This document shows positions 3,172 to 19,651 of a stretch of DNA of 53,156 nucleotides, piece by piece. Numbering within the stretch: position 1 is the stretch's first letter; the number at the start of each line of letters is the position of its first letter. This DNA is from a virus. Location: positions 1 through 53,156 of IMG/VR virus record IMGVR_UViG_3300044568_003773; one strand, given 5' to 3'. Below the pieces are notes generated by a model. The model was not told the origin of the DNA and did no database searches. It saw only the letters and a list, made by a program, of their open reading frames with translations. A program made the position numbers and the translations under genes.

Positions 3172-3193
3172 AACTTCTAATTTGACTCAAAAT

Positions 3194-3225: not shown

Positions 3226-3232
3226 TCTGTAG

Positions 3233-3240
3233 TATTTATA
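3233..3240 (+). promoter_or_regulatory. TATTTATA start-proximal motif
   Basis: Sense-oriented TATTTATA ending three bases before the ATG at 3244. One of thirteen such motifs; see the finding on candidate late elements. Confidence 0.4.
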
Positions 3241-3243
3241 GTT

Positions 3244-3787: not shown

Positions 3788-3797
3788 TTTTTTATCA

Positions 3798-3805
3798 TAT
3801 TTATA
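3798..3805 (+). promoter_or_regulatory. TATTTATA start-proximal motif
   Basis: Sense-oriented TATTTATA with three bases before the ATG at 3809, the same spacing as at 3233-3240 and 16970-16977. Confidence 0.4.
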
Positions 3806-3808
3806 TGT

Positions 3809-4582: not shown

Positions 4583-4606
4583 TGTAAAAATTACCAATTA
4601 ACAATA

Positions 4607-4614
4607 TATTTATA
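4607..4614 (+). promoter_or_regulatory. TATTTATA start-proximal motif
   Basis: Sense-oriented TATTTATA, 13 bases before the ATG at 4628, within a longer run TATATTTATATA. Confidence 0.4.
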
Positions 4615-4627
4615 TAGAAAAATTACT

Positions 4628-4828
4628 ATGTCTACAACTGCATGTACATCTTATTATACTACTACCGTAGTTGGTTATCTTCCGGCTTCTGGAACTACAG
4701 TAGGTACTATTGTGACTTTCAATACTCCGAAACCTGTATGGAACGATACGGTTAAAAATGAGGCGAGTGTTGTTTCTTTACAATGTAATGGAGTTGCCTT
4801 GGGCGGATTTAATGGACTAAACAATTAA
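4628..4828 (+). CDS. small hypothetical protein, 66 aa
   Basis: Not recognised. Rich in Thr, Ser, Val and Gly (STTACTSYYTTTVVGYLP), suggesting a small beta-strand protein, possibly a minor virion component. Base and codon use match the neighbours, and a TATTTATA motif lies upstream. It ends 14 bases before the next gene. Confidence 0.6.
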   Translation: MSTTACTSYYTTTVVGYLPASGTTVGTIVTFNTPKPVWNDTVKNEASVVSLQCNGVALGGFNGLNN

Positions 4829-4842
4829 AAACAAATATAAAA

Positions 4843-6135
4843 ATGGGAGATTTAAGACCTCTTGGTAGTGAGAAATTAGAAGGTGTTGAAAAATTAAGAA
4901 GAATTATGGAGATTGCTCGTTATAACGAAGCACCTAAAACTGAAACTAATCCACTTTCCACAACTAACTATACTATTACTTTGGCTGATGGTATGACTTA
5001 TGGTATTGTTAAAGAAAAAACAGGATACATCCTCAAAAAAGGTTTGAACGAGTCTGAAATGGACTATAACGAACCTATGAAACAAAGGAAATATTATAGA
5101 TCATATTCTGAAGCGATGAAAAAACTTAATCTTGTCGCTGCCGAAGTCAACAGGGTAACTGGAAACGAATTTGAAATTCCTCTTATTGGTGAACAAGAGG
5201 CAAAAAAAAAATATGTTTTAAGAACTCCTAAACCTAAATCTGAAGAAATGCCAGCACCGGAACCTGCAATGGAACCGGCACCAATGCCTTCCCCATCACC
5301 TGAACCACCAGCGGATGCTCCTATGGGATCTGAAATGGGTGGAGAAGAACCAATGGGTATGGAACCTGAAATGGGTGGAGAAGAACCAATGGGTATGGAA
5401 CCGGAAATGGGTGGAGAAGAACCCGTAGATGGTGAAGAGCCAATGGGTATGGAACCTGAAATGGGTGGAGAAGACGATGGTGACGAAGAACCACAAGGAC
5501 CAGCAGGTTTGAAATCAATTCAAAGACTAACAGGTAAATTAAGTCAAAAAATTAGAGCTTTTGATAAAGATCAAGGACTAGATTCTCAAGATATTAAGTA
5601 TGTAATTAATTCTATAATATCTGCAATGGATTTAGATAGTTTAGATGAAGACGATAAAGAAGATATACTTTCTAAATTCGACGAATCTGATGAATATGGT
5701 GCTGAAGGTGAGGGTGAGTTTGACTTGTCAGGAGAAGAAGACTTCGATATGGGAATGGAACCTGAAATGCCAGAACCGATGGACGGCGAAGAGCCGATGG
5801 GAATGGAACCTGAAATGTCTGAACCTGTAGAAACATACACTTTCAAAGAATCTGTAGAAAGTGTTTTATCAAACTATTTTATTATTAATGAAGATGAAAA
5901 AAAAGGTTTAGAAAAAAAATCAAAAAAAGATTTTATAAAATCTAAAATTAATAAAATAGATACATTGAGGGATTTGAGAAAATTAAGTGAAAACAACACT
6001 CAATACAAAGTTAGTTTGGAATTGATAGAGGAAAATAAAGGAACCAAATTCATTGGTAAAACCAATAAGTCCAACTTAGTTTTTATTAAAGAAGGTAAAC
6101 AAATTAAAGTAACACCAACAGGATCGATTATATGA
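4843..6135 (+). CDS. acidic repeat protein of the head gene region
   Basis: Three parts are visible. A conserved-looking N-terminal region (1-125) precedes a central acidic, Pro- and Met-rich segment (about 130-330), followed by a lysine-rich C-terminal domain (about 340-430) containing FIGKTNKSNLVF. The centre contains repeats built on GGEEPMGMEPEM, encoded by a 36-base unit repeated from about 5335. Between the repeats lies a helical segment (QDIKYVINSIISAMDLDSL). Its place two genes upstream of the terminase and its composition, which resembles the scaffold at 13523, suggest a virion or prohead component. That is inference; I recognise no named family. Confidence 0.65.
   Translation: MGDLRPLGSEKLEGVEKLRRIMEIARYNEAPKTETNPLSTTNYTITLADGMTYGIVKEKTGYILKKGLNESEMDYNEPMKQRKYYRSYSEAMKKLNLVAAEVNRVTGNEFEIPLIGEQEAKKKYVLRTPKPKSEEMPAPEPAMEPAPMPSPSPEPPADAPMGSEMGGEEPMGMEPEMGGEEPMGMEPEMGGEEPVDGEEPMGMEPEMGGEDDGDEEPQGPAGLKSIQRLTGKLSQKIRAFDKDQGLDSQDIKYVINSIISAMDLDSLDEDDKEDILSKFDESDEYGAEGEGEFDLSGEEDFDMGMEPEMPEPMDGEEPMGMEPEMSEPVETYTFKESVESVLSNYFIINEDEKKGLEKKSKKDFIKSKINKIDTLRDLRKLSENNTQYKVSLELIEENKGTKFIGKTNKSNLVFIKEGKQIKVTPTGSII
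5335..5474 (+). repeat. in-frame 36-base tandem repeats
   Basis: Units of 36 bases encode E-M-G-G-E-E-P-M-G-M-E-P and are repeated in tandem, one copy interrupted by an insertion encoding VDGEEP. A further partial copy lies near 5780-5820. All remain in frame, so this is coding repeat expansion. Confidence 0.8.
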
Positions 6136-6551
6136 ATTTGATTTATGTAAATGAGCTAGGACCTAATTACAAAGGTGATAACATTTACGAATTTATATTT
6201 TCGGATATTAATGATGTGTGGGGTGAAGATTGGGATGCAACACCATCAGGTGGAAAACCACTCCCCCCTCAAATAGAATTTATAAAAAAGGTTGGGGTTT
6301 TAAGAAACTCAGAAATAGAATTAGAACTGATACAACAGTCTGATTATTTTGGAGTATATGATGCAGTAGATGGTGTTATTGGGTTAGCTTGGGAAAAATC
6401 TGATTCTGACTCAGTTACATTCAACAAGTATAAAAGATTAGTTTTTCACTTTGGTGAAACAGACGAATCTGTAGAAAACAAACTTTACGAAAGAGATGTC
6501 GTATTAAAATGGGAAAAAAATTTAGTCAAAGATGAAACACATGAATCCTAA
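6132..6551 (+). CDS. hypothetical protein, 139 aa
   Basis: Not recognised. It begins in a four-base overlap with the previous stop (ATGA), which points to coupled translation. The protein is acidic and mixed alpha/beta, with WGEDWDATPSGGKPLPP near residue 30 and a C-terminal half that looks like a small globular domain. Its fixed place between the acidic repeat protein and the terminase suggests a head-assembly role, but nothing in the sequence proves it. Confidence 0.65.
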   Translation: MNLIYVNELGPNYKGDNIYEFIFSDINDVWGEDWDATPSGGKPLPPQIEFIKKVGVLRNSEIELELIQQSDYFGVYDAVDGVIGLAWEKSDSDSVTFNKYKRLVFHFGETDESVENKLYERDVVLKWEKNLVKDETHES

Positions 6552-7050
6552 ATTAGTTAAACTTTTACATGAAGGTTTTTCTATGAATACATTAGAAAAA
6601 CTAAACGAAAACCAGTTAAATGTTCTTTTTAAAAGAATAAATGAGCAAAAAGGTAAGGTAACAGTTTCTTCAGATAAGTTGGGGACTGTCGATCTTAAAA
6701 AAATGACAGACTCAGGTGTTGATGTTGAGGTTAAAGAAGAGGAGACTGAAGTAAAGGAGAAGTCAGTTTCCCAACAACAACAAAAAATAATGGGATTGGC
6801 ACTTTCAGTGAAAAAAGGAGATACTGCAAAATCTAAAGTTTCTAAAGAAGTAAAGAAAATGGCTAAAGACATGACTTACAAAGAATTAGAAGACTTTGCA
6901 TCGACTAAAAGAAAAGGGTTACCCAAGAAAAAAGAAACGGACGAAGAAGTTAAAAATCTTGAAGAGGGTATTCTTAGAATATTACAAAATCATTTACCTC
7001 CACATACCACAAAAGGTGAACTTCTCGATGTAATTCGTAGAAGAAATTAA
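6532..7050 (+). CDS. hypothetical protein immediately upstream of terminase
   Basis: A charged, lysine- and glutamate-rich 172-residue protein with helical ends and a low-complexity centre. Two in-frame starts exist, at 6532 and 6541; the second (MNPKLVKLLHEGFS) leaves the smaller overlap with the preceding gene. The last 25 residues (EGILRILQNHLPPHTTKGELL) look like a folded C-terminal motif. In T4 the small terminase gp16 precedes gp17, so this could be a divergent small terminase. However, it lacks a recognisable coiled-coil core, so I do not assign that role. Confidence 0.6.
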   Translation: MKHMNPKLVKLLHEGFSMNTLEKLNENQLNVLFKRINEQKGKVTVSSDKLGTVDLKKMTDSGVDVEVKEEETEVKEKSVSQQQQKIMGLALSVKKGDTAKSKVSKEVKKMAKDMTYKELEDFASTKRKGLPKKKETDEEVKNLEEGILRILQNHLPPHTTKGELLDVIRRRN

Positions 7051-7056
7051 AAATGA

Positions 7057-8832
7057 ATGTCGTTATCGAAAGAACAAATATTATTAGAGTATGCTAAGTG
7101 TGTAAATGATACACCTTACGCCTTAAAAACATATTTACAAACTTACGACAACACACAGTCCAAATATGTTCCATTAGAACTTTTTAATGATCAGGTTACA
7201 CTTGTTAAAGATTATGACGAGTGTGAAGAAAATATCGCACTTAAATACCGACAAGCCGGTGTTTCAACCGTTACATCCGCATGGGCATCTAAAAGGTTAG
7301 TATTTGCTAAAAAATCAAAACCAGAAAAAATATTGATTATTGCAAATAAAATGGACACCGCTGTAGAGATGGCAAATAAAGTGAGAGCTTTTGTTGAACA
7401 GTGGCCAAATTGGTTAGGTGTAACATTCTCTAACGAAAAAAATTCACAAAGACATTTTAAATTAACTAACGGATGTGAAGTAAAGGCAGTTGCAACATCT
7501 AAGGATGCTTTGCGTGGGTATACACCTACGATCTTAATCTTTGATGAGGCAGCATATATTAATGCGGACGAAGATTTCTGGTCAGCGTGTATGGCATCCC
7601 TATCTACAGGAGGTAAAGTTATAGTAATATCAACACCAAATGGATTTGATCCAATATATTATTCAATTTACAGTCAGGCGATAAAAGGAATGAATGACTT
7701 TAAAATAACAGAAATGTATTGGTTTCGAGATCCTAGATATTCTAAGGATCTGAAATTAATTAAGTGTGATGATATTGTTCACTATATGTTGAATAGGGCG
7801 GATTATAATGATTCTGAAATCATACTAGACTATACTGAAGTCAAAGTAATTAATAGAGACTTTGAAGAAATAAAGGAAAAAATTAATAAAGGTTACAAAC
7901 CGTATAGTTCTTGGTTTGAGGCTATGGCCAAAAAGTTAAAGTTTGACAAAAGAAAAATTTCTCAAGAATTAGAATGTAATTTTTTAGGTTCGGGTGACAA
8001 TGTTATCCCACCTGAAACGATGAAAAAAATAAAAGAAAACCACATCCAAGAACCTGTTAATAAATTTATGGGAGGTGCACTTTGGCAATGGAAAGAACCT
8101 ATTGTTGGTCATAAATATATTATGGGTGTCGATGTATCAAGAGGAGATAGTGAAGATTTTAGTACTATATCAATCATTGATTTTGACTCAAGAGAACAAG
8201 TTTTAGAATATATTGGAAAAATCCCACCCGATGTTTTAGCAGAAATTGCTTTCAAGTGGGGAACTATGTATGGTTCCCTTATCGTGACTGATATAACAGG
8301 AGGGATGGGAGTGTCAACATCAAGAAAATTACAAGAACTTGGATATAAAAATTTATATGTTGATGGGGTAAACCCTGCAGATAAATGGAAGTGGGACCCA
8401 AAGGCTAATGATAAAATTCCTGGTATTAATTTTAACGCAAAACGAGTTCTAATTATTCAATCATTTGAGGAAGCTTTAAGGTATGATTTTGTTGTCAGAT
8501 CACAAAGGTTATTTAATGAATTGAATACATTCGTTTATGTAAACGGTAGACCTGATCACCAAAAAGGACAACATGATGACTTGATAATGTCATTTGCAAT
8601 AGCAATTTATGTTGCTGAAACATCTTTTGCCCAATTAGAAAAAGTAACAGAACAAACAAAGGCAATGTTAGATTCTTGGTCAGTAGAAAGTAATACTTAT
8701 CATAAAGAGTATACAAGTTTTAATCCAAGTTTACCAGTATCACAGAGAGATCAAACAGGATATCAGAGAAACACGGTCACTAAAAGTGATTATGAAAAGT
8801 ATTTATGGTTATTCAGTGGTAAAAGGGTTTAG
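7057..8832 (+). CDS. terL: terminase large subunit (gp17-like)
   Basis: ATPase-nuclease that cuts concatemeric DNA and pumps it through the portal into the prohead. The N-terminal ATPase has a deviant Walker A, YRQAGVST at about 64-71, as in many phage terminases where the classical GKT is not kept; Walker B is LIFDEAAY at 160-167; a coupling motif ISTPN lies near 195. The C-terminal RNase H-like nuclease carries acidic residues in GVDVSRGDSEDFST, IVTDITGGMG and the closing HDDLIMSFAIA. Length (591 aa) matches T4 gp17 (610). It follows the previous gene by six bases and precedes the portal gene, without the tail sheath and tube genes that separate them in T4. Confidence 0.95.
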   Translation: MSLSKEQILLEYAKCVNDTPYALKTYLQTYDNTQSKYVPLELFNDQVTLVKDYDECEENIALKYRQAGVSTVTSAWASKRLVFAKKSKPEKILIIANKMDTAVEMANKVRAFVEQWPNWLGVTFSNEKNSQRHFKLTNGCEVKAVATSKDALRGYTPTILIFDEAAYINADEDFWSACMASLSTGGKVIVISTPNGFDPIYYSIYSQAIKGMNDFKITEMYWFRDPRYSKDLKLIKCDDIVHYMLNRADYNDSEIILDYTEVKVINRDFEEIKEKINKGYKPYSSWFEAMAKKLKFDKRKISQELECNFLGSGDNVIPPETMKKIKENHIQEPVNKFMGGALWQWKEPIVGHKYIMGVDVSRGDSEDFSTISIIDFDSREQVLEYIGKIPPDVLAEIAFKWGTMYGSLIVTDITGGMGVSTSRKLQELGYKNLYVDGVNPADKWKWDPKANDKIPGINFNAKRVLIIQSFEEALRYDFVVRSQRLFNELNTFVYVNGRPDHQKGQHDDLIMSFAIAIYVAETSFAQLEKVTEQTKAMLDSWSVESNTYHKEYTSFNPSLPVSQRDQTGYQRNTVTKSDYEKYLWLFSGKRV

Positions 8833-8869
8833 TTTATAACTAACCATATTATTTTTTAAGAAAAAAATT

Positions 8870-10690
8870 ATGTCAGAACAAAAATTAACGGTGTGGCAAA
8901 GATTGAGTAGGACTTTTGGTCCTAATGCAACCCTTGACCAACAATCTCCCGTATTCAAATTTGATAAAAAGGAGCTATTAAAGACAACAGATAAATCTGA
9001 GTTTGAAAAAGAAAAATTACAATCTCAGCAGACAATGTATATCGGCCAACAATGGCAAAAAGTAGAAAATAATTTATACCAACAAGCGGTATATTATGAA
9101 CCAACAAGAATGGCGTCATACTATGATTATGAATCTATGGAATATACACCTGAAATTTCTGCGGCATTAGACATTTATTCTGAAGAATCCACAACACCAG
9201 ATCAAGATGGACTTATATTAAAAGTTTATTCTGAATCAAAAAGAATAAAATCAGTATTAATCGATCTTTTTGTTAATAAATTGGATATTAACACCAACTT
9301 ACCAATGTGGACAAGAAACACATGTAAGTTTGGTGACAACTTTGTATATCTTAAGTTAGATCCTGAAAATGGTATTGTTGGATGTCAACAACTACCAAAC
9401 ATTCAAATCGAAAGATTAGAAAAAGGGATGAGGTTTCAACCTGATAAGTACTCACAAGAAATGGAAAACGACGCTTTGAAGTTTACTTGGAAGGAAAAAA
9501 ACATGGAGTTCAATACTTGGGAAGTAGCACACTTTAGAATTTTAGGTGACGATAGAAAACTACCGTATGGTACATCGATGCTCGAAAAGGCTCGTAGAAT
9601 TTGGAAACAATTATTACTTTCTGAAGATGCGATGTTAATCTATCGTGTATCTAGAGCACCTGAAAGAAGAGTATTTAAAGTATTTGTCGGTAACATGGAC
9701 GACAAAGATGTTGACCCATATGTACAAAGAGTTGCTAATAAATTTAAAAGAGATCAAATTGTTGATCACTCAACAGGTAATGTCGATATGAGGTATAATC
9801 AAATGGCGGTAGACCAAGATTATTTCATTCCTGTTCGTGATCCGGCAGCAACCAACCCTATTGAAACATTACCAGGTGGTACGAACTTAGCTGAAATCGC
9901 AGACATTGAGTATATTCAAAAGAAATTAGTTACAGCTCTTAGAATACCTAAGGCTTATTTAGGATTCGAAGAGGCGGTAGGTGATGGTAAAAATTTATCA
10001 TTATTAGATATTCGTTTTGCGAGAACTATCAATAGAATTCAAAAGTCTATGATTGCAGAATTAAATAAAATTGCAATTATTCATCTTTTTTTATTAGGTT
10101 TTGAAGACGAATTAACAAACTTCACATTAGGTTTACACAATCCATCTAAACAATCTGAATTACTTTCAATCGAACTATGGAAGGAAAAAATACTTCTGTA
10201 TAAAGATGCAGTTACACCTATCGCAGACACAGTAGCCCCTGTTTCAGCGTCTTGGGCTAAAAAACATATCTTAGGGTTCTCAGATGAAGAAATAAGATTA
10301 GATATACAACAACAAAGGGTAGAAAGGGCAGTGGCTGCAGAACTTGTAAAAACTGCTGAGAGTATACCTAAAACCGGACTTTTTGATACTATAGACCAAC
10401 TTTACGGTAAAAAAGATGGTGAAGCAACACCTGAAGGAGGTGCGGCACCTGAAGGAGGTGATATGGATATGGGAGGTGGAGATTTAGGCGGAGGAGCCCC
10501 ACCACCACCTGAAGGCTCACCATCACCTGAACCTGGAGGGGTAACACCTGAAAGTTTTAATAAAGATGGATTAGATTTAATATTGGAAGATTTGTCATTA
10601 TTTAATTCTGCAGATGTTATAGAATTATCTAAAGGAAGAAACTCGTTGATTGAAATAGATGAAAGAGTTAAATCTTTATTGAATAAGTAA
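8870..10690 (+). CDS. portal vertex protein (gp20-like)
   Basis: Dodecameric portal through which DNA enters and leaves the head and to which the neck attaches. The T4 gp20-type core is clear: MASYYDYESMEYTPEISAAL near the N-terminus, the NTCKFGDNFVYLKLD segment, a long central region including ARRIWKQLLLSEDAMLIYR (about 240-260), and the helical SLLDIRFARTINRIQKSM. The last 120 residues include a Gly/Pro/Glu low-complexity stretch (about 515-560) and a short helical end. The start follows an A-rich leader without a Shine-Dalgarno sequence; AGGAGG strings inside this gene are coding and not at any start. Confidence 0.93.
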   Translation: MSEQKLTVWQRLSRTFGPNATLDQQSPVFKFDKKELLKTTDKSEFEKEKLQSQQTMYIGQQWQKVENNLYQQAVYYEPTRMASYYDYESMEYTPEISAALDIYSEESTTPDQDGLILKVYSESKRIKSVLIDLFVNKLDINTNLPMWTRNTCKFGDNFVYLKLDPENGIVGCQQLPNIQIERLEKGMRFQPDKYSQEMENDALKFTWKEKNMEFNTWEVAHFRILGDDRKLPYGTSMLEKARRIWKQLLLSEDAMLIYRVSRAPERRVFKVFVGNMDDKDVDPYVQRVANKFKRDQIVDHSTGNVDMRYNQMAVDQDYFIPVRDPAATNPIETLPGGTNLAEIADIEYIQKKLVTALRIPKAYLGFEEAVGDGKNLSLLDIRFARTINRIQKSMIAELNKIAIIHLFLLGFEDELTNFTLGLHNPSKQSELLSIELWKEKILLYKDAVTPIADTVAPVSASWAKKHILGFSDEEIRLDIQQQRVERAVAAELVKTAESIPKTGLFDTIDQLYGKKDGEATPEGGAAPEGGDMDMGGGDLGGGAPPPPEGSPSPEPGGVTPESFNKDGLDLILEDLSLFNSADVIELSKGRNSLIEIDERVKSLLNK

Positions 10691-10698
10691 TATTTATT
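10691..10698 (+). promoter_or_regulatory. TATTTATT start-proximal motif
   Basis: Sense-oriented TATTTATT beginning right after the portal stop codon and 11 bases before the ATG at 10710. Confidence 0.35.
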
Positions 10699-10709
10699 AA
10701 ATAAAAACT

Positions 10710-11441
10710 ATGAACACTTTTGGCACTATAAAAACAAAAATAGAAAAAGCATCTATCGGTTTATACGGAAAACCTGAATTTAAATCTTTTTTGAAACAAT
10801 TTAAATCAATGGTTTTAGAAAACAAAGACATTGCTGAGTTATATTATATCTACGATGATTTATCTTCTAACAAGGGTATTAATGAATCTATCGCCGAAGA
10901 TTACATAAATGAAACTGTTGAGTATTCTCAAATTTTAGTTGAAGGTAATTCAAAACATATTACAAAGGTAAGTAATTGGATTGATTCTATTGTATTGGAA
11001 CATACTAATGAATACAAGGATATTGATAATACGATATATAAGAAATCAATCAAAGACCTATCCACGGTTTTAGAATCTAAAAGAAAAATTAAGTCTAATA
11101 TTATTTTAGAAGAAAAGAAAGAAGATATAATAGAAAGCGTTAACTTACCAATTTCAACAATGGTTAAGGTTGCTGAAGAAAATATTAAATTAGAATTAAA
11201 AAATATTTCAGAATCAGAAAGAAAAGTTATAGAGGAGTTGTCATCTATGTCGGATGAAGAAATCAAAACCGAAATGGACCAACTTAAAGAAAATGTTATT
11301 TCTAATTTGAAATCTACTTTGAACGAATCGACAGAATCTGATTTAAAATCAACAATAGAAAATACAATCAAAAAAATTAATGAATCACCTTATGATAGAT
11401 TCAATCTTTATAAGTTGAGGGGTTTAAGTCAAGGATTATGA
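10710..11441 (+). CDS. hypothetical helical protein after the portal
   Basis: Not recognised by family. A 243-residue, highly charged, almost wholly helical protein. Ser, Glu and Lys dominate, and the second half (about 140-230) has heptad-like spacing (EEKIKTEMDQLKENV style). Its place between portal and prohead protease matches the position of the small prohead-core proteins gp67/gp68 in T4, so a prohead core role is plausible. This rests only on position and composition. Its stop overlaps the next start by four bases. Confidence 0.65.
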   Translation: MNTFGTIKTKIEKASIGLYGKPEFKSFLKQFKSMVLENKDIAELYYIYDDLSSNKGINESIAEDYINETVEYSQILVEGNSKHITKVSNWIDSIVLEHTNEYKDIDNTIYKKSIKDLSTVLESKRKIKSNIILEEKKEDIIESVNLPISTMVKVAEENIKLELKNISESERKVIEELSSMSDEEIKTEMDQLKENVISNLKSTLNESTESDLKSTIENTIKKINESPYDRFNLYKLRGLSQGL

Positions 11442-11674
11442 TTAGGTTTTTTAAATCAATGATGGAAGGGGCAAATGGGGGGATTTCCTCTAAAAGGTTT
11501 ATTGGTCTTCTTTGTGGATTATCCCTAATTGTAGGATTATTTATATCTATGTTTAGTTGTGGAAAATACGAACCATCATCAACTTTGGTGGATGCTGTAG
11601 GTCTGTTGGCCTTTGGGTGTTTAGGTTTGACTTCAGTCGATTTCTTTACACACAAAAAAGGTGACAACAAATAA
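11438..11674 (+). CDS. small two-helix membrane protein, holin-like
   Basis: A 78-residue protein with two predicted membrane helices: about 24-42 (GLLCGLSLIVGLFISMF) and about 52-67 (AVGLLAFGCLGLTSVDFF), with a basic N-terminus (RFFKSMMEG, SSKR) and a charged tail HKKGDNK. Size and topology fit phage holins or holin-like inner-membrane proteins. It is translationally coupled to the preceding gene through ATGA. No endolysin is nearby, and the family has no diagnostic residues, so holin function is a guess from size and topology. Confidence 0.6.
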   Translation: MIRFFKSMMEGANGGISSKRFIGLLCGLSLIVGLFISMFSCGKYEPSSTLVDAVGLLAFGCLGLTSVDFFTHKKGDNK

Positions 11675-11857
11675 CTAGTTATTCTTTTTTTGTAAATAAG
11701 CTGCCTTTTTCTTCTGGTCTCTTTTTGAAACTGAAGGTTTCGTAAACTCCTGTAATTCCCTCAACCTTTCGATTTGTTTTGTTTTATACACTTTAAATTT
11801 ATATTGTTTAAGTGCTTGCTCAATAGAGTTAGGGTTTTTTACTGGTACTATAATCAT
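11675..11857 (-). CDS. rpsU: ribosomal protein bS21
   Basis: Small-subunit ribosomal protein that sits on the 30S platform next to the 3' end of 16S rRNA. The 60-residue sequence fits bS21 along its length: MIIVPVKNPNSIEQALKQ, the helix with KVYKTKQIERLRELQ, then KPSVSKRDQKKKAAYL. The MIIVPV start and the AAYLQKK end resemble Bacteroidota bS21. Tyr54 lies in the C-terminal tail region that in flavobacterial ribosomes helps hold the anti-Shine-Dalgarno. It is inserted antisense between the portal-linked genes and the prohead protease. Unlike the other genes here it has a full Shine-Dalgarno (AAGGAGG, eight bases before ATG), a feature also described for host rpsU in Bacteroidota. bS21 genes are known in other large and marine phages, so phage carriage itself is not new. 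Confidence 0.92.
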   Translation of the reverse strand: MIIVPVKNPNSIEQALKQYKFKVYKTKQIERLRELQEFTKPSVSKRDQKKKAAYLQKKNN

Positions 11858-11865
11858 ATTTTTTT

Positions 11866-11872
11866 CCTCCTT
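11866..11872 (-). promoter_or_regulatory. strong Shine-Dalgarno of the bS21 gene
   Basis: On the minus strand AAGGAGG ends eight bases before the ATG at 11857, with one more A upstream extending the match. Of the starts I inspected in the window, this is the only one with such a sequence; the others have A/T-rich leaders. Confidence 0.9.
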
Positions 11873-11876
11873 TTGA

Positions 11877-11909
11877 TATAAATATACAAGATTTTTCGAT
11901 TTTTGACAA
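11877..11909 (-). promoter_or_regulatory. candidate promoter of the bS21 gene
   Basis: On the minus strand TTG (11909-11907), a 20-base spacer and TATATTTA (11886-11879) resemble the Bacteroidota TTTG/TAnnTTTG promoter with one mismatch in the -7 box. The same bases also contain TATTTATA (11884-11877), the start-proximal motif. Either element would place transcription start just before the Shine-Dalgarno. Confidence 0.5.
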
Positions 11910-11933
11910 CGATGTTTATTTTTATTATAATTG
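11902..11933 (+). promoter_or_regulatory. candidate promoter for the head genes from 11965
   Basis: The plus strand reads TTTG (11902-11905), 20 bases, TATAATTG (11926-11933), one mismatch from the Bacteroidota consensus. The same stretch is also a perfect TTGACA (11903-11908), 17 bases, TATAAT (11926-11931) of the classical sigma-70 type. It shares its upstream element with the divergent bS21 promoter. Confidence 0.6.
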
Positions 11934-11964
11934 TATAAAACAAATAAACTTTAAGTTATGAAGA

Positions 11965-12414
11965 ATGAAAAAAGGAAAAACATCGAAATTAAATGTTTTT
12001 GATGATGCTAAATGTTACTATGGTACGGTAGATTCAAAAGAAATGAAATCCATATACATAGTACTACAGACATGGATCCAACCATCAGATGATTATGATA
12101 ATTGGGAAAAAATAACAGGTCATATTAAAAGACAAATACAACACACATTATTAGAAGTATTAGACTTCACATTCTTCGAAAAGAAACAAATAGTCGACTT
12201 AGACTTGAGAACAAGTGGGATACAAAAAGGTAAAAAGAGTTTTTTAAATTTAGAGATTACACTTTTCATTCATAATAAATTTGTAGAATTCAAATCACTT
12301 ATTTTAAGAAATAAAATCAAAACACTATTAACTGCAATATACACTGACGATTTAAAAAATTGTAAGTTTTTTACACTTAATAAAACAAAAAATCCAGAAA
12401 TGGTTATTTCCTAA
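11965..12414 (+). CDS. hypothetical protein between bS21 and prohead protease
   Basis: Not recognised. A 149-residue mixed alpha/beta protein with a lysine-rich start and end. An earlier ATG at 11958 is in another frame, so 11965 is the start. It is the first gene after the strong plus-strand promoter and is followed 23 bases later by the prohead protease, so it probably belongs to head assembly. It shows no cysteine motif and no membrane segment. Confidence 0.65.
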   Translation: MKKGKTSKLNVFDDAKCYYGTVDSKEMKSIYIVLQTWIQPSDDYDNWEKITGHIKRQIQHTLLEVLDFTFFEKKQIVDLDLRTSGIQKGKKSFLNLEITLFIHNKFVEFKSLILRNKIKTLLTAIYTDDLKNCKFFTLNKTKNPEMVIS

Positions 12415-12422
12415 TATTTATT
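12415..12422 (+). promoter_or_regulatory. TATTTATT start-proximal motif
   Basis: Sense-oriented TATTTATT directly after the preceding stop and 15 bases before the protease ATG at 12438. Confidence 0.35.
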
Positions 12423-12437
12423 TATTAAAAATAGATT

Positions 12438-13145
12438 ATGAAAATTTTAGGACCGAATGATAGTGGTAAAGGAATACTTGTAGAATGGGATGCTGGATTC
12501 ATCAATCCAAATGATGAGAGAAATACCGATATAATAAAAGAATCTTACGGACAGTTAGAACACTCAAAACCTTTTGTGTTCTATGCGACATTACAAAAAC
12601 ACGGAGTACCTAACAGAAACGGTAGGGTTTATCCTGAAAACATATTAAGAAGAGAGGCTGATAAGTATAAAGAACTTATTAATAAAGGGATGTCGATTTC
12701 TGAATTAAACCATCCTGAGTCTTCATTAATTGACTTAGATAGAGTATCACATCTTATTACTGACATATGGTGGGAAAACAATGTTTTAATGGGTAAGATT
12801 AAATTATTAACCACTCCAGGTTTTCACGAAAGAGGTATAGTGTCATCCAAAGGAGATGTTGCAGCAAACATGATGAGACAGGGTGTTACTATGGGTGTAT
12901 CTTCTCGTGGTGTTGGTTCTTTGGTAAAAAAAGGTGAGCAAAATGAAGTACAGGATGATTTTGAATTAATTTGTTTTGATCTTGTTTCTTCACCGTCAAC
13001 GCCAGGAGCTTACCTTTACTTAAACAAGGAAGACCGACCAAAGTATGAAGAAAAACTTGCCGAACATGATAAAAGTAATTTTTCAGGTAGTGGTTTAGAG
13101 AAATCTGTTGACTTAATGAAAAGATTGACCGATTATTTAAAATAA
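12438..13145 (+). CDS. prohead core protease (gp21-like)
   Basis: Serine protease of the herpesvirus-assemblin/T4 gp21 group that cleaves scaffold and capsid during head maturation. Key signatures are GRVYPENIL (62-70), ELNHPES with the catalytic His at 92, GVSSRGVGS with the catalytic Ser at 155 or 156, and CFDLVSSPSTPGA. The length (235 aa) is close to T4 gp21 (212). It lies just before the scaffold and major capsid genes, as in T4. Cleavage sites in those partners were not assigned. Confidence 0.92.
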   Translation: MKILGPNDSGKGILVEWDAGFINPNDERNTDIIKESYGQLEHSKPFVFYATLQKHGVPNRNGRVYPENILRREADKYKELINKGMSISELNHPESSLIDLDRVSHLITDIWWENNVLMGKIKLLTTPGFHERGIVSSKGDVAANMMRQGVTMGVSSRGVGSLVKKGEQNEVQDDFELICFDLVSSPSTPGAYLYLNKEDRPKYEEKLAEHDKSNFSGSGLEKSVDLMKRLTDYLK

Positions 13146-13156
13146 AAAAACACATT

Positions 13157-13366
13157 ATGGAAGAAAAATATTTTATTGCAAAAATTACAACAGACATGCC
13201 TGATGAGAACACAGGAAAGATTAAAAAAATTAGAGAAGAAAAATTAGTAAAAGGATATTCACCAACTGATGTTGAGGCAAAAGTTACTAAAGTATATGAA
13301 TCATATACAATGGATTGGAGAATTACGGCAATAGTTGAATCAAAAATTGATGAAGTTATTGAATAA
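13157..13366 (+). CDS. small DUF4494-like protein
   Basis: A 69-residue protein with the layout of the small Bacteroidota family DUF4494, as I recall it: an N-terminal YFIAKI strand, a KIKKIREEKLVKGYS segment, the TDVEAKV helix and a closing strand ITAIVES. The biochemical role of the family is unknown. It sits between protease and scaffold, where T4-like phages carry small head genes, and is followed by a strong terminator. The family match is from memory and moderate. Confidence 0.6.
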   Translation: MEEKYFIAKITTDMPDENTGKIKKIREEKLVKGYSPTDVEAKVTKVYESYTMDWRITAIVESKIDEVIE

Positions 13367-13391
13367 TTATTAATTATTACTACAAAAATTT

Positions 13392-13420
13392 AAGGGACGC
13401 CAACAGGTGTCCCTTTTTAT
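13392..13420 (+). terminator. rho-independent terminator
   Basis: A ten-base-pair stem (AAGGGACGCC with GGTGTCCCTT, one G-T pair), AACA loop and a TTTTTATTTAT tail, 25 bases after the stop at 13366. It separates the protease unit from the scaffold-capsid unit. Confidence 0.9.
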
Positions 13421-13480
13421 TTATATCTATTTTTTTTTATCTGAAAACCTTAATATAATGATTTTTTTATAATAAGGATA

Positions 13481-13488
13481 TATTTATC
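13481..13488 (+). promoter_or_regulatory. TATTTATC motif upstream of scaffold gene
   Basis: Sense-oriented TATTTATC within TATATTTATC, 34 bases before the scaffold ATG at 13523. Following a terminator, it is a good candidate for the promoter of the scaffold and capsid genes. Confidence 0.5.
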
Positions 13489-13522
13489 TGTAAAATAAAC
13501 GCGTAACGCATTGCTTAAAATA

Positions 13523-15052
13523 ATGAGTACAGAAAAAACAGGATCGATAGTTGAACAAACCTTATTACAAATTAAGGCTGTTGAAAATGCTATCAGTGAA
13601 AATGCAAAAGGAATACTTGCTTCTACAATGAAACAAGAAATCAGCGAATTAGTTAGAGAGTCTTTAGTAGATTCAAAACAAACAAAAAAACCCCTAAACG
13701 AACAAGAAGAGCCTGAAATGGAAGAACCTGTAGTTGCGACTGCAGATGACGAAGAAGAAGAGGCTGTAATTGATGTTGAAGACGAGGGGGGAGAACCTGA
13801 ATCAGAATATGTCTTTGGTATGGATTCCGAAGATGGTGAAGAAGAAGGTGATAATGAAATGGAAATGCCTCCACTTGACATGACTTCGGCATCACCTGAC
13901 GAAGTTTTGAAAGTTTTCAAAGCTATGGGTGATGAAGATGGAATTATAGTTAAGAAGGATGATGATTATATTCACTTGATCGATGATGAAGATGAGTATT
14001 TGATTCAAACTGGAGACATGGACGATAATACAGAAGAACCAATGTTGGATTTAGAAGAAAGTGTTATCTACGAAATTGAAATGGAAGAAGGTGATTATCA
14101 CATGGAAGAACAAGAATTTGAAGAAGGTGATTATCACATGGAAGAACAAGAATTTGAAGAAGGTGATTATCACATGGAAGAAATGTACATGGAAGAAGGA
14201 GACTATATGGTTGACTTGGATAATGTACAATTCGGACAAGATGATTTTTCAAATGTTGAAGAAGAATCCATTTATGAAATCGATGAAGAAGATCTTCACT
14301 CAGTAGTAGAAGCATTTAAAGCAGTAGGAATGGGAATGGGTAAAGTAGGAACAGGAATGGCTAAAACTTCAGTTAATAACAAAGGGTTCAAAGAAGACCA
14401 ACCACAAGGCACAAAAGGTGTTGGAATGGGTAAAGCAAGTAAATTTAAATATCCTAAAATTAAACATGGAGTTACTGAAACCGAAACTGAAGAGGCATTC
14501 GAAGGTTGGGATATGGAAGAAGATGTTGATTTGGTAGATATTGAAGCTACTGGAGGTATGATGGAACCTGAAACAACTGAAGCGTCAAGAACTATGACAT
14601 ATAGAAGAAGAGCTGAAAGAGACAGAGTGGCAGCACCAAGTCAGTTAAGAAAAGAATCTGTAGAAAGAGAACTTGATTTAATTAAAGAGAAAAACGAAGA
14701 ATACAAAAAAGCTTTGAATTTCTTTAGATCTAAGTTAAATGAAGTTGCAGTATTCAATTCAAACTTGGCATATGCTACAAGATTGTTCACTGAACATTCC
14801 ACTACAAAACAAGAAAAAATAAATATTCTAAGAAGATTTGATAATGTAGAATCTATCAAGGAATCTAAAACACTTTACAAGTCAATTAAAAATGAATTAG
14901 ATGGTAAAGGTGGTGAGATGGTAACTGAGTCAGTTCAGACAAAAGTTAATAGAACACCAGCTAACGGATCATCAACAAACTTAATTGAAAGTAAAACTTA
15001 TGAGAATCCTCAATTCATGAGAATGAGAGATTTGATGTCAAAAATTAAATAA
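13523..15052 (+). CDS. prohead scaffold/core protein (gp22-like)
   Basis: Acidic internal scaffold expected to fill the prohead and be degraded by the protease. The protein has a helical N-terminus (about 1-60), a very acidic centre (about 65-275) and a helical C-terminal region (about 375-460, RERELDLIKEKNEEYKKAL type) that resembles the gp22 core fold. The centre contains a 12-residue repeat EGDYHMEEQEFE. I take the ATG at 13523 (MSTEKTGSIVEQ) rather than the TTG four codons earlier. It lies immediately upstream of the major capsid gene, which is the main support for the assignment. Confidence 0.78.
   Translation: MSTEKTGSIVEQTLLQIKAVENAISENAKGILASTMKQEISELVRESLVDSKQTKKPLNEQEEPEMEEPVVATADDEEEEAVIDVEDEGGEPESEYVFGMDSEDGEEEGDNEMEMPPLDMTSASPDEVLKVFKAMGDEDGIIVKKDDDYIHLIDDEDEYLIQTGDMDDNTEEPMLDLEESVIYEIEMEEGDYHMEEQEFEEGDYHMEEQEFEEGDYHMEEMYMEEGDYMVDLDNVQFGQDDFSNVEEESIYEIDEEDLHSVVEAFKAVGMGMGKVGTGMAKTSVNNKGFKEDQPQGTKGVGMGKASKFKYPKIKHGVTETETEEAFEGWDMEEDVDLVDIEATGGMMEPETTEASRTMTYRRRAERDRVAAPSQLRKESVERELDLIKEKNEEYKKALNFFRSKLNEVAVFNSNLAYATRLFTEHSTTKQEKINILRRFDNVESIKESKTLYKSIKNELDGKGGEMVTESVQTKVNRTPANGSSTNLIESKTYENPQFMRMRDLMSKIK
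14087..14182 (+). repeat. in-frame 36-base tandem repeat in scaffold gene
   Basis: Two full 36-base units (14087-14122 and 14123-14158) and a partial third encode EGDYHMEEQEFE. The copies are nearly identical at DNA level, implying recent duplication. Confidence 0.85.
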
Positions 15053-15083
15053 ATAAATAAACTCTAAATTAAAAAAAAATAAA

Positions 15084-16910
15084 ATGGGAGCATTATTAGA
15101 ATCAGGTCTTGTTGGTAACATCGGGTTGAAACACCTTAAAGTTATCAAAGAAGATACAATTAACAAATGGGATAAATTAGGATTCCTAGATGGTCTTAAA
15201 GGACACATTAAAGAGAACATGGCTCAATTATATGAGAACCAAGCATCTCACCTTATTAACGAAGCGGCTTCAACTGATAGCTCAGGTTCATTCGAAACTG
15301 TAGTTTTCCCTATCGTAAGACGCGTATTCTCTAAATTGTTAGCTAATGATTTAGTATCTGTACAAGCAATGAACTTACCTATCGGTAAATTGTTCTACTT
15401 TGTACCTAAAATCCAAGGTTACCAAGCGGCAGCTAATAACCAAATACAACACTTTCCACCACTTGGTTCACCCGCTACTTTAGTAGGTGATGCTACTGCA
15501 ACTCAAGGACAAGGTTACGGATCAACTAGTACATACGGTGGTACTAACTTGTATGACTTATTCTATGAAGGAAATGAGCCAGGATTAGATCCTGCAGGTT
15601 TATTTGACTATTCAAAAGGAGCTTATACGGCAATTACTTCAAGTGCTGTTGGCACTGTAGTTTGGAATGGTTACAATTTAGTGTCTTCTGGTTATTCAGC
15701 AGGTGAGTACAGAAAAGTATTAATCGGTTTATCAGGTTTCTCTAATGCGGGTGCTGGTAAATTAATTGGACCTGATGGTCAGGAAATGGATAATGAAGCA
15801 TTCTTATCTGACTTACAAGTAAATGCTGTACAAGCGGGTGTTAATGGTTTCTCAGGTTTAGGTACTAGTGATATTCTTTTCAGAGTTGTTACTCAAAAAT
15901 ATGGTAAAGGTATTGTACAATATGGTACACAAGCAAATACAACTTGGTCATCTACAGGTAACGGAGGTTCTTATGATAACCTTTGTTCACAAGATGGTAT
16001 CATCTATTTAGAGTTGGATCTACAAGTTCCTGCAACTATCGGTACAGGTTCAATTGACGGATATTCAGGGTTCACTTTACCAATTACTGGTCTTGCCACT
16101 GCAGGAGCTGCGTTTACATGTACATTCAGAAGATACAAAGAATTGGAATTCGAAGATGAGATCGGTGAAGTATCTTTTGACCTTGAGTCAGTTACTGTAT
16201 CTGTTACAGAAAGAAAACTAAGAGCACAATGGTCTCCTGAATTAGCTCAAGATGTATCTGCATTCCACAATATCGATGCTGAAGCTGAATTAACAGCTTT
16301 ATTATCTGAGCAAGTGGCGGCAGAAATTGATCGTGAAATTCTTCGTGATTTGAGAAAAGGCGCAGCTTGGACACTTCGTTGGGATTACAACGGATGGAAA
16401 AGAGGTACTACTGCAAATCCATTAACTCAGTACACTCAAAAAGACTGGAACCAAACATTAATCACTGCGATTAACCAAATTTCGGCACAAATCCACAAAT
16501 CTACTTTGAGAGGTGGAGCTAACTGGATCGTAGTTTCTTCTGAAATTTCAGCTATTTTTGATGACTTAGAATACTTCCATGTATCTAACGCTTCACCGGA
16601 GCAAGATCAATACAACATGGGTATTGAAAGAGTTGGTACATTAGCTGGTCGTTACCAAGTTTACCGTGATCCTTACTTCCCACCAAACACAGTATTGTTG
16701 GGTCACAAAGGAACATCATTGTTAGACACTGGTTATGTTTACGCACCGTATGTACCTCTACAATTAACACCTACAATGTATAACCCATTCAACTTTACAC
16801 CAATCAAAGGTATCATGACAAGATACGCTAAGAAAATGGTTAACAACCGTTTCTATGGTAGAATCACAGTTGATGGAGTTAGAACATTTGACTTAAGAGA
16901 ATTGAGATAA
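15084..16910 (+). CDS. major capsid protein (gp23-like)
   Basis: Main HK97-fold shell protein of a T4-like head. The N-terminal part (NENMAQLYENQASHLINEA style, about 35-60) and the following ETVVFPIVRRVFSKLLANDLVSVQAMN are typical of gp23, as are the central YKELEFEDEIGEVSFDLESV and the C-terminal MTRYAKKMVNNRFYGRI. The 608-residue length exceeds T4 gp23 (521); the extra length lies mainly in the region about 130-330, rich in Gly, Ser and Thr, probably a surface insertion domain. The usual N-terminal prohead cleavage by the gp21-like protease is expected but the site was not located. Its leader is A-rich without a Shine-Dalgarno sequence. Confidence 0.95.
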   Translation: MGALLESGLVGNIGLKHLKVIKEDTINKWDKLGFLDGLKGHIKENMAQLYENQASHLINEAASTDSSGSFETVVFPIVRRVFSKLLANDLVSVQAMNLPIGKLFYFVPKIQGYQAAANNQIQHFPPLGSPATLVGDATATQGQGYGSTSTYGGTNLYDLFYEGNEPGLDPAGLFDYSKGAYTAITSSAVGTVVWNGYNLVSSGYSAGEYRKVLIGLSGFSNAGAGKLIGPDGQEMDNEAFLSDLQVNAVQAGVNGFSGLGTSDILFRVVTQKYGKGIVQYGTQANTTWSSTGNGGSYDNLCSQDGIIYLELDLQVPATIGTGSIDGYSGFTLPITGLATAGAAFTCTFRRYKELEFEDEIGEVSFDLESVTVSVTERKLRAQWSPELAQDVSAFHNIDAEAELTALLSEQVAAEIDREILRDLRKGAAWTLRWDYNGWKRGTTANPLTQYTQKDWNQTLITAINQISAQIHKSTLRGGANWIVVSSEISAIFDDLEYFHVSNASPEQDQYNMGIERVGTLAGRYQVYRDPYFPPNTVLLGHKGTSLLDTGYVYAPYVPLQLTPTMYNPFNFTPIKGIMTRYAKKMVNNRFYGRITVDGVRTFDLRELR

Positions 16911-16930
16911 TCAATTAAATAATGAATAAG

Positions 16931-16962
16931 AAAAAGGTCAGAGAAATCTGACCTTTTTTATT
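16931..16962 (+). terminator. rho-independent terminator after the capsid gene
   Basis: A perfect twelve-base-pair stem (AAAAAGGTCAGA with TCTGACCTTTTT) closed by a GAAA tetraloop and followed by a T-rich tail, 20 bases after the capsid stop. Confidence 0.95.
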
Positions 16963-16969
16963 TTAAAGA

Positions 16970-16977
16970 TATTTATT
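16970..16977 (+). promoter_or_regulatory. TATTTATT start-proximal motif
   Basis: Sense-oriented TATTTATT directly after the capsid terminator and three bases before the ATG at 16981. Because a terminator precedes it, the following gene needs its own promoter, which favours a promoter role for the motif. Confidence 0.5.
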
Positions 16978-16980
16978 GTT

Positions 16981-17706
16981 ATGAACCAACAAGAAAAGTT
17001 TTTTTTATTAAACGAAGTTACCTCAACAAATACAGGGTCAAGAGGAAGTTATGTCGGTCGTTTACAATCAGGAATTAGATATTTTAAAAAGAAAGATTTA
17101 GGTCCGTTTACCGAAAATGTTTCGGACTATAAAAGTCCTGATTTAGAATATGATTCATATGATGGAAAAATGGAAAGAAGTAAAAAACAAATAGGTAAGA
17201 AAGAAAAAATTGCAAAAAAAATCTATAACTATATTAAAAATAACCCCCAATCAACTTTTAGTGATACCGAAGGTAACCCAATAAATCGGTTTCCTGGAAA
17301 AAATACAAATATAGTACCGATTAAAGAATGGGTGGAATTAGATAAAATTAATTTAAATGAAGATTTGGCGGTTTGGTTTGGAACAAAGAAAAAACCTAAA
17401 GGATCAAAACAACCAAAAGGACCATGGGTTAACATATGTAGAAAAGTAGATGGTAAACACCCACCATGTGGAAGACCTGACACATCTAAAGGTGCTTATC
17501 CTAAGTGTAGGGCAGCTGGTGTTGCTGGTAAAATGAGTGATTCGGCTAAAAAGGCCGCTTGCCAACAAAAAAGAAAGGCCGAGAAAAAAGACACCCAAAC
17601 AGGTAAAGGTCAAAAACCAATTATGACATCATACAAACCAAAAAACAAAAGGACCCAAAATGAGTCCTTAGAAAAAATTATTAAAAATATTTTAAGTTCA
17701 CTTTAA
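16981..17706 (+). CDS. basic protein with C-terminal cysteine motif
   Basis: A 241-residue lysine-rich protein. The segment about 140-205 contains WVNICRKVDGKHPPCGRPD, CRAAGVAGKMSDSAKKAAC and a basic tail. This spaced Cys pattern recurs in small phage and giant-virus proteins and may bind metal or nucleic acid; a link to the DUF5872-type group is from memory. The N-terminal part (LLNEVTSTNTGSRGSYVGRLQ) resembles virion-associated phage proteins. It converges on, and overlaps by four bases, another protein with a related C-terminal motif (17703-18170). Function is unknown. Confidence 0.65.
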   Translation: MNQQEKFFLLNEVTSTNTGSRGSYVGRLQSGIRYFKKKDLGPFTENVSDYKSPDLEYDSYDGKMERSKKQIGKKEKIAKKIYNYIKNNPQSTFSDTEGNPINRFPGKNTNIVPIKEWVELDKINLNEDLAVWFGTKKKPKGSKQPKGPWVNICRKVDGKHPPCGRPDTSKGAYPKCRAAGVAGKMSDSAKKAACQQKRKAEKKDTQTGKGQKPIMTSYKPKNKRTQNESLEKIIKNILSSL

Positions 17707-18170
17707 CAATAAGTTCCTGAACATCTTTTTTGACCATCAAGTCCTTTTATTTTTCCTTTACATACTTGTATTGCGTACCCATTGGCATAAGCTGAAGGAT
17801 ACACATCATATTTTGCTTTAGCTGCCGACTTACCTCTTGCACAAAGTTTAGTCCCTGTTTTTTTTCTACCCTCAATCATCATCATATCCTCGTCATCGAT
17901 ATTCATAGAAAGTTCCATACCATCTTTTTTTGATTCATTCATCAAAAAATCAAAAACTTGATCCATGTTGTTTTTAGCCTCTGCGATATGATCTTGGGCC
18001 CAATCGTGACCATTTTCTAAAATACTCTCCACCATGTTTGGGTCTAAATCTAACAATAGATCACATTGTCTTCTCATCTGTTGTAAATTAGAAAAAAACA
18101 TGTATCTTGAATTGTTCATTCTATGATCTTCATTTAATACTTTTCTTATTATTCTTTCTATGTTGCCCAT
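17703..18170 (-). CDS. DUF5872-like small protein
   Basis: A 155-residue protein with a helical N-terminal half (RIIRKVLNEDHRM, an acidic middle) and a C-terminal module about 105-155: KLCARGKSAAKAKYDVYPSA, then YANGYAIQVCKGKIKG and a final CSGTYC. This YPSAYANGYA module is found in phage and giant-virus proteins and is, from memory, the DUF5872 type; its role is not known. The module resembles the Cys motif of the convergent gene at 16981-17706. It is the last gene of the long leftward unit. Confidence 0.65.
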   Translation of the reverse strand: MGNIERIIRKVLNEDHRMNNSRYMFFSNLQQMRRQCDLLLDLDPNMVESILENGHDWAQDHIAEAKNNMDQVFDFLMNESKKDGMELSMNIDDEDMMMIEGRKKTGTKLCARGKSAAKAKYDVYPSAYANGYAIQVCKGKIKGLDGQKRCSGTYC

Positions 18171-18172
18171 AA

Positions 18173-19651
18173 TTATTTTTTATTTACAATTTGGAACTGA
18201 AGTTCCCTTTTATATGTATCGATATTTCTATCAGAATTTACTTTTATATCCACAAAATATTCATTAGGTATCTTATCGGTTGTATCAAACATGAAATAGT
18301 AACCATCTGTTGTTTGGTTTATTCTTGTCCAATCTTGAACCTGAACCTCAGTGTTTGCTCCCTCTCTTACATATATTCTGTAATATGCTTCTATGTTATC
18401 TAATGGTTGGTTCGATGTGTAAGCCTTCTTGATGGTTATATTTACTTTTCTAACATCCGTGTTTAAAACCTTTTCGTTTTGTTTAATCCCATCAAAAGAG
18501 AACCCATATAACTTAGGGGTTTCAGTGGTAGTTCCTATTTTGATATTACCATATTTCTTCAAAAGAATAAATTCATTTTCGACATCAGGGATTTCAACAT
18601 TGTTCACACTTAATCCACTCCACACATCGTAGAACACACACGGAACTGTATTCGCCGTTAACCCTGAAATAGTTACCTTGTAAACACCTTTCGTTACTAA
18701 ACAGGTAGAAAGTCCTGTGAAACCACTTACAGGTTCACCAGCACCATCTATGATGTTTACAAGTGGGTCTTGGTCTAAGTTAATGTAGTTACCATTTTCA
18801 TAAACATATAAAAATAGATCATTATTATTACCTGAATAGAATTGGTTTCGTTGGTCGATAATTAAATCATCATAAGAAGTCTCTAAATATGGTTCATAAA
18901 ATGTTTGTGTATGAGGGGAGAAAAACCCAACAGAATAGTTTTCAGTTAATCCTGTGATATTTTCTAATTGCGGATAAAATGCAATACCCCAACCTGTAGT
19001 GCCTGTAATTGTACCATGAATAATACCATTGATTTCTTGAGTCATATCAAACTCAATGTTTTCATTTCCAAATTCAAAATGTTGTCTGTCTACTATAGTG
19101 AGACCTGAGAAATTTAAACCTGTTGTACCTGTTAATGAATTAGTATTATTATAGATTCCATTGTATGACCATCCTGAAAGTGTGGTTGTCTGAAACCAAT
19201 TGGACGGTCTATCAGAAAAAGGTCTATCATTTAAATCCGTCACCCCAAAATCATAGTAATCATAACCAACACCACTGTCCCATTGTTGTGGAACACCGGT
19301 AGTTCCTGAATATTTAGGTATTCTAAATAAAACTAAATCAAATGATGTGGCCCTTCTTCTTCCTTGTGATGTTTTACTATTTAATAACTCATTATCAAAA
19401 AATGAAGTATTTGTCATTTTTAATGTATGTGTCATTGCGGAAGTACAACCCGTAGAAATTACCGATGATTGAATATGATTAGTCAAATTAGTAAGATCGA
19501 TATCAAAAATGTATCTACTATAACCAACCGGCACACTAAGATTATCCACTCTACCATAGAATAATTCAACAATCGGATTTCTTGCCGTATTGGTGTATGA
19601 ATTATATATTAGAGTATTAGATTTACTAAAATAAGACTTATATATAGACAT
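18173..19651 (-). CDS. beta-rich structural protein, probably tail or baseplate
   Basis: Not assigned to a named family. The 492 residues are rich in Gly, Thr, Asn and Tyr, with many short strands (TGTTGLNFSGLTIVD, GIIHGTITGTTGWGIAFYP) and no predicted membrane segment, typical of virion beta-sandwich proteins. The C-terminal 150 residues (NVRKVNITIKKAY through YKRELQFQIVNKK) look like an immunoglobulin-like or baseplate-connector domain. It follows the gp5-like gene in the same leftward unit, so a baseplate or tail role is likely. Its start is preceded by a TATTTATA motif. Confidence 0.65.
   Translation of the reverse strand: MSIYKSYFSKSNTLIYNSYTNTARNPIVELFYGRVDNLSVPVGYSRYIFDIDLTNLTNHIQSSVISTGCTSAMTHTLKMTNTSFFDNELLNSKTSQGRRRATSFDLVLFRIPKYSGTTGVPQQWDSGVGYDYYDFGVTDLNDRPFSDRPSNWFQTTTLSGWSYNGIYNNTNSLTGTTGLNFSGLTIVDRQHFEFGNENIEFDMTQEINGIIHGTITGTTGWGIAFYPQLENITGLTENYSVGFFSPHTQTFYEPYLETSYDDLIIDQRNQFYSGNNNDLFLYVYENGNYINLDQDPLVNIIDGAGEPVSGFTGLSTCLVTKGVYKVTISGLTANTVPCVFYDVWSGLSVNNVEIPDVENEFILLKKYGNIKIGTTTETPKLYGFSFDGIKQNEKVLNTDVRKVNITIKKAYTSNQPLDNIEAYYRIYVREGANTEVQVQDWTRINQTTDGYYFMFDTTDKIPNEYFVDIKVNSDRNIDTYKRELQFQIVNKK

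Follow-up and report, generated by a model that had tools for sequence, protein, structure and literature searches.

A strong Shine-Dalgarno site precedes the bS21 gene of a phage and may couple its translation to bS21-free ribosomes

The bS21 (rpsU) gene of an IMG/VR phage record of 53,156 bases, the whole of which was analysed and is referred to here as the window, is preceded by a strong Shine-Dalgarno (SD) site, AAAAGGAGG, that pairs with the 3′ tail of Bacteroidota 16S rRNA at -12.2 kcal/mol. Its SD ranks first among the 59 called genes of the window, the next gene reaching -7.7 kcal/mol with an interrupted helix; the site is shared by two diverged sub-lineages, and one gain suffices to account for it on a portal-protein tree. 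An earlier note on this DNA had proposed a self-sensing switch of translation copied from the host, of which the switch itself is plausible as a mechanism in the light of published work on host rpsU (PMC9976891, in the parts covered), whereas the copying of the host leader is not supported by the comparisons below; the idea in that note that the protein then locks ribosomes onto phage messages is conjectural. Our preferred reading, held tentatively and as somewhat short of probable, is a convergent SD-dependent control in which 30S subunits free of bS21 would preferentially make phage bS21. The features concerned are listed in Table 1.

Table 1. Features of the bS21 locus and its surroundings in the window
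Feature	Coordinates	Strand	Remarks
Large terminase	7057..8832	+	Context matching published bS21 phages
Portal protein	8870..10690	+	Also used for tree
bS21 (rpsU) gene	11675..11857	-	60 aa, ATG start, Tyr54 in C-terminal tail
A-rich spacer AAAAAAAT, SD to ATG	11858..11865	-	
Shine-Dalgarno AAAAGGAGG	11866..11874	-	8 nt before ATG; 8-bp core AAAGGAGG complementary to 16S tail
TATTTATA box	11877..11884	-	19 nt before ATG; promoter-like motif, putative role
Prohead (head maturation) protease	12438..13145	+	
Major head protein	15084..16910	+	

The gene product matches PF01165 at 38.2 bits against a cut-off of 27 (37 bits in another search) and aligns over its full length, Tyr54 included, with the host-type protein of PDB chain 7jil, which we take to be that of F. 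johnsoniae, in agreement with its description in the earlier note as a Bacteroidota-type phage bS21. The same note had named Tyr54 as one contact residue; this residue stacks on A1534 (PMC9723584), and the output of an SD reporter rises in a Y54A mutant (PMC9976891). The gene forms a single-gene unit whose neighbours on both sides lie on the opposite strand. Like the Bacteroidetes phages of Chen et al. 2022 (PMC9723584), the window has a reverse-strand bS21 gene within a block of terminase, portal, prohead protease and major capsid genes, an aromatic residue at position 54 and hypothetical genes flanking bS21 on both sides; most of the relatives found, by contrast with the window, are without an SD. 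Rfam gave no matches at gathering scores within the window, no tRNAs were found in the window or in nine pieces of a related 166-kb record (G002), and a megablast of window positions 3000-18200 against the phage collection returned no matches.

Further features were observed elsewhere in the window. An M42/M20-type peptidase gene (37-1113) and a gene for a two-AAA ClpA/ClpB-like ATPase (phrog 'ATP-dependent protease'; 1135-3171) adjoin on the minus strand, ~8.5 kb from bS21; separately, McNutt et al. have speculated about a phage-encoded protease directed against host bS21 (PMC9976891). A long run of minus-strand genes occupies 24-43 kb, some of them sugar-nucleotide- or glycosyltransferase-like by eye, and the one gene of this run that was searched (41819-43078) matches a glycosyltransferase family. 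Self-comparison also revealed imperfect direct repeats in steps of ~36 bp at ~14048-14206, inside the ORF at 13511-15052.

Pairing energies were calculated with RNAduplex against ACACCUCCUUUCU, the 16S 3′ tail of Bacteroidota, which occurs exactly in 7 of the 16 Bacteroidota genomes searched, with no exact match in the other 9. With this tail the leader SD, whose GGAGG lies at 11866-11870, forms an uninterrupted 8-bp helix; the bare SD core yields -11.0 kcal/mol as compared with -12.2 kcal/mol in its leader, and the AGGAGGU reporter SD used in the host work yields -10.7 kcal/mol in the same calculation. The leader itself has little tendency to fold (-0.3 and -3.9 kcal/mol), less than shuffled sequences have on average. 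The strong SD noted earlier eight bases before the ATG is confirmed by these values, and it is the strongest in the window.

It is very improbable that AAAAGGAGG is instead a DNA operator, a promoter spacer or a protein-binding RNA site that has nothing to do with the ribosome, even though it lies between the ATG and a TATTTATA box that is common to related bS21 leaders. The exact 8-bp match to the 16S tail falls at ordinary SD spacing, many sister phages have the TATTTATA box without an SD, and no such box is found in the four SD leaders of a second clade described below. The motif TATTTAT (coding strand), of which 11877-11884 is an example, shows an enrichment of ~13-fold within 50 nt upstream of genes in the window and in the G002 and G008 records, its end mostly lying 4-6 or 11-18 nt before the ATG, and is possibly a phage late promoter that gives very short leaders.

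The first rank of bS21 extends to the records most closely related to the window. In G002, which is identical to the window across the 11.8 kb compared, the bS21 SD is first of 158 genes, the next reaching -9.6 kcal/mol, and it also heads the 72 genes in the 69.8 kb covered of G001 and the 43 genes of G004. Gene calls were a simple greedy ORF set in which some starts will be wrong, and with alternative ATGs allowed (and a 16S tail differing at its first base) bS21 still comes first in the window, G002, G001 and G004. Where bS21 has no SD, its rank ranges from 4 of 74 to 112 of 161 (G006, G008, G010, G014, G015, G016, G018 and LR756502). One candidate for another regularly SD-led gene, the MKIIITENQ... 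genes that come top in G006 and G008, was discarded, its matches being by eye codons of the overlapping preceding gene.

Phages with bS21 tend to avoid SDs, as do Bacteroidota. Across 1419 non-bS21 genes pooled from 12 bS21-phage records, a pool that omits the window, G001 and G004 (same lineage as G002) and LR756501 (coding-like matches), sites at or below -7 kcal/mol occur in 34 SD regions as against 88 mock regions situated further upstream of genes, and sites at or below -11 kcal/mol in 6 SD and 8 mock regions. A site of -11 kcal/mol or stronger is found on a gene other than bS21 in 4 of the 8 records where bS21 has no SD; a genome with one site of this strength is thus nothing unusual, and what is remarkable is its location on bS21 here and in few others. 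These counts bear on a view that we consider unlikely though credible, namely that drift in a single ancestor turned an A/G-rich, promoter-linked leader into AAAAGGAGG, which has since been kept solely by general leader conservation and without any regulatory role: the occurrence of strong sites on other genes speaks for such a compositional accident, whereas the depletion at the -7 kcal/mol level speaks against it.

The depletion is also relevant to a plain strong ribosome-binding site, whereby infection would open the anti-SD on many ribosomes, e.g. by loss of host bS21, and the SD would raise output with no loop. This we judge improbable, as open ribosomes might favour SDs on other late genes too, and as phage bS21, having kept Tyr54 and aligning with the host-type protein, should close the site. 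Both the spacing and the strength of the window leader are nevertheless within the usual range for an SD. Also in favour of a plain binding site, related phages judged to be in late replication transcribed bS21 together with structural genes (PMC9723584).

The relatives of the window gene were collected with and without regard to the SD. In an SD-blind scan, of which the best 80 of 171 loci were taken, the 11 loci with at least 86% bS21 identity (L002-L012) all carry the SD and the remaining 69 (67-79%) all lack it; a pattern scan for AGGAGG before MII[IVM]PVK starts gave exactly the contigs of L002-L012. Additional leaders were contributed by two more scans, a profile scan (at least 80 loci in one part) and a phage-collection search, five of whose six records were used. 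The resulting 253 loci, in which contigs often recur, were reduced, after removal of a 21-residue fragment (L150), to 98 distinct leader-protein pairs, of which 8 reach -10 kcal/mol or lower: four are variants from the window clade, and the others are LR756501 (L227), L338, L339 and L340. A strong SD is thus the exception among homologous phage rpsU genes, 90 of the 98 lacking one, an outcome that the earlier note had itself listed as refuting its reading. Intermediate sites were also seen before bS21, aaaagga at -6.2 kcal/mol in L178-L181 and aaaaaggg at -5.1 kcal/mol in L381/L383, and these may represent transitional stages in the gain or loss of an SD.

Clustering at 80% identity gives 40 clusters, 5 of them with an SD, a count that includes L338, L339 and L340, which were fetched by a pattern demanding AGGAGG and are no unbiased sample. 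Without these three, 2 of 37 clusters have an SD (p = 0.011 against the background of 6 in 1419, at a threshold set after the data were seen), which argues against an accidental origin; when the window clade, itself picked for its SD, is also left out, the figure falls to 1 of 36 (p = 0.14), and the cluster count is therefore compatible with chance, as the accidental origin would have it.

The second SD-bearing clade comprises LR756501, L338, L339 and L340, in all four of which bS21 is SD-led. A second such clade with the SD on the same gene is a further point against accident, although a search that required an SD supplied three of the four. In the record of L338 (G011) bS21 is first of 99 genes at -11.2 kcal/mol, with the next at -6.2, and in that of L340 (G013) first of 61 at -13.5 kcal/mol, with the next at -10.0; in that of L339 (G012) it is second of 69, and in the 735-kb record LR756501, of which 49 kb was covered, its SD ranks sixth among 88. 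SD-like sites at or below -7 kcal/mol are not depleted in the latter two records (6 versus 2 mock in G012; 13 versus 5 mock in LR756501). Wider SD use in LR756501 was considered and set aside, its other strongest sites falling in one small-gene run with a YGEE[DN]W coding motif shared, by eye, in the upstream sequence; this motif mimics strong SDs, and the run lies at ~32-40 kb of the locus (L312) on the minus strand. Virus markers comprise a tail sheath gene in G012 and a phage-type helicase in G013; of four proteins tested in G011 one gave an SbcC-like match, and the viral status of this record rests on IMG/VR.

In a portal-protein tree of 38 rows, in which identical portals are entered once and partial ones omitted, the SD-bearing phages form one clade (SH-aLRT 99) adjoining SD-less phages, so that one change suffices. 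The bS21 tree requires two changes for the phage SDs; it is weakly resolved (112 rows, 64 columns), every third host locus having been kept (25 rows), and its host SD labels derive from a tail differing at the first base (57 of 80 hosts at or below -10 kcal/mol, as against 66 of 80) and may change, the phage labels remaining the same. Here the group of LR756501, L338, L339 and L340 (support 95) is sister to a 77-row phage group (81) to which the window clade belongs, and six SD-less phage bS21 sequences fall either at the root or between host sequences. With the window clade surrounded by SD-less phages, the tree topology favours a gain of its SD. Retention of a host leader was rejected for this clade, whose nearest relatives by both portal and bS21 are SD-less; for the second clade, which branches beside the 77-row group at a fork with support of 81-95, it is possible.

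Conservation of the site was examined between the window and L011, whose bS21 proteins are 87% identical and whose pS over 13 genes is 0.44-0.70. Of the 20 nt before the bS21 ATG, 19 positions are identical between the two and the SD is unchanged, which at such divergence counts against a site of no function. Leader identity for this pair nevertheless averages 0.76 over 20 gene pairs, with four others at 0.95-1.0; the bS21 leader is therefore no outlier, since leaders in general are conserved, and this general conservation is what the accidental origin would draw upon. In favour of an accidental origin too, the nearest sister leaders have A/G-rich stretches of the same length as the window SD, and some sister leaders are near-SD (L013 aaaaagag, L178 aaaagga).

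On indirect evidence, to which the SD depletion belongs, the host phylum is probably Bacteroidota. All of the best 80 bacterial-genome bS21 matches listed are from Bacteroidota except one MAG labelled Limnohabitans, for a profile that held two host-type PDB bS21 chains, and the better matches of the terminase include Flavobacterium phages (30.6% identity). Two phages show an enrichment of A near -3 and between -10 and -13, without a clear one at -6, F. johnsoniae favouring A at -3, -6, -12 and -13 (PMC9976891). The MAG labelled Limnohabitans (L287) has a Flavobacterium-like rpsU with an SD leader and is possibly mis-binned. Among the 80 host rpsU genes, which are the best profile matches listed rather than a random sample and whose search region exceeded that of the phages by 2 nt, pairing is at or below -10 kcal/mol in 66 and reaches -13 kcal/mol in 43.

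The window gene has much in common with the Flavobacteriales rpsU of McNutt et al. 2023 (PMC9976891): it is a stand-alone bS21 gene with a short leader (25 nt for the native rpsU of F. johnsoniae) and a conserved Tyr54, and rpsU carries the strongest SD of an SD-poor genome in the host and of an SD-poor genome record in the phage, at rank 1 of 158 in the 166-kb record. The host helices, however, are of 9-13 bp at below -13 kcal/mol (free_scan, PMC9976891), as against 8 bp and -12.2 kcal/mol (RNAduplex) in the phage, which falls short of that range. Flavobacteriales host leaders also read GARAGGAGGTG, and the window site is without the GGTG 3′ part. A widespread strong SD is moreover a trait of host rpsU (PMC9976891), compared with 8 of 98 among phage leaders. 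Taken with the position of the window clade among SD-less phages, these differences weigh against a leader 'copied' or 'retained' from the host, and the phage SD was apparently gained separately from that of host rpsU.

Phage bS21 and the feedback on host rpsU are already known; for an SD on a phage bS21 gene, whose retained autoregulatory leader had appeared undescribed to the earlier note, no report was found in the literature searched, which included PMC9976891, PMC9723584, PMC7162821, PMC10783764 and PMC6375957 as far as each was covered, most subscription papers, bioRxiv preprints and supplements being outside its scope. The parts of Chen et al. covered contain no leader or Shine-Dalgarno analysis of phage bS21 genes, and the terms promoter, start codon, RBS and ribosome binding are all absent from the main text as covered (PMC9723584). 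Al-Shayeb et al. 2020 (PMC7162821) proposed for the rpS21 of huge phages, as would apply to the window, that phage bS21 redirects host ribosomes; the sections covered treat SD usage in relation to rpS1 and do not mention one before the gene for bS21. According to McNutt et al., autoregulation in the host may serve as a counter-defence against phages that displace bS21, and the discussion, as covered, mentions phage bS21 with no word of an SD on the phage gene (PMC9976891).

In the mechanism that we tentatively prefer, i.e. convergent SD-dependent control, a phage of the published Bacteroidetes bS21 type carries bS21 as a single-gene unit that, by analogy, would be expressed late, and the A/G-rich leader of the window lineage would have evolved into a strong SD. 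As bS21, bS18 and bS6 mask the anti-Shine-Dalgarno in Bacteroidota ribosomes, the most efficient users of this site should be 30S subunits without bS21, whether newly made or stripped during infection. The phage bS21 that such subunits produce would in turn become part of them and shut the site once more, acting like the host rpsU feedback with a separate origin; phage bS21 would also compete with the SD-led host rpsU for the same bS21-free subunits, and SD-less phages may have escaped the feedback. The effect is expected to be modest because the helix is short. In the host, a reporter with the 7-bp SD AGGAGGU rises 1.4 to >2-fold when bS21 is mutated or depleted, and AGGA has virtually no effect (PMC9976891).

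A wider proposition, which we regard as possible and somewhat doubtful, is that phages capturing bS21 mostly dropped the host SD feedback so that replete ribosomes make the protein freely, and that at least two separate lineages, one of them by re-gain, have a bS21 SD tuned to capturing bS21-free 30S subunits ahead of their replenishment through the host rpsU feedback. If this is true, the ribosome-repair circuit of the host would be a point of phage-host conflict. SD-bearing and SD-less phage bS21 genes provide a natural contrast, in which the leader predicts whether production is tied to bS21-free ribosomes, and the finding may bear on specialised ribosomes, on the entry of a phage into a host feedback loop and on the reason why phages carry bS21.
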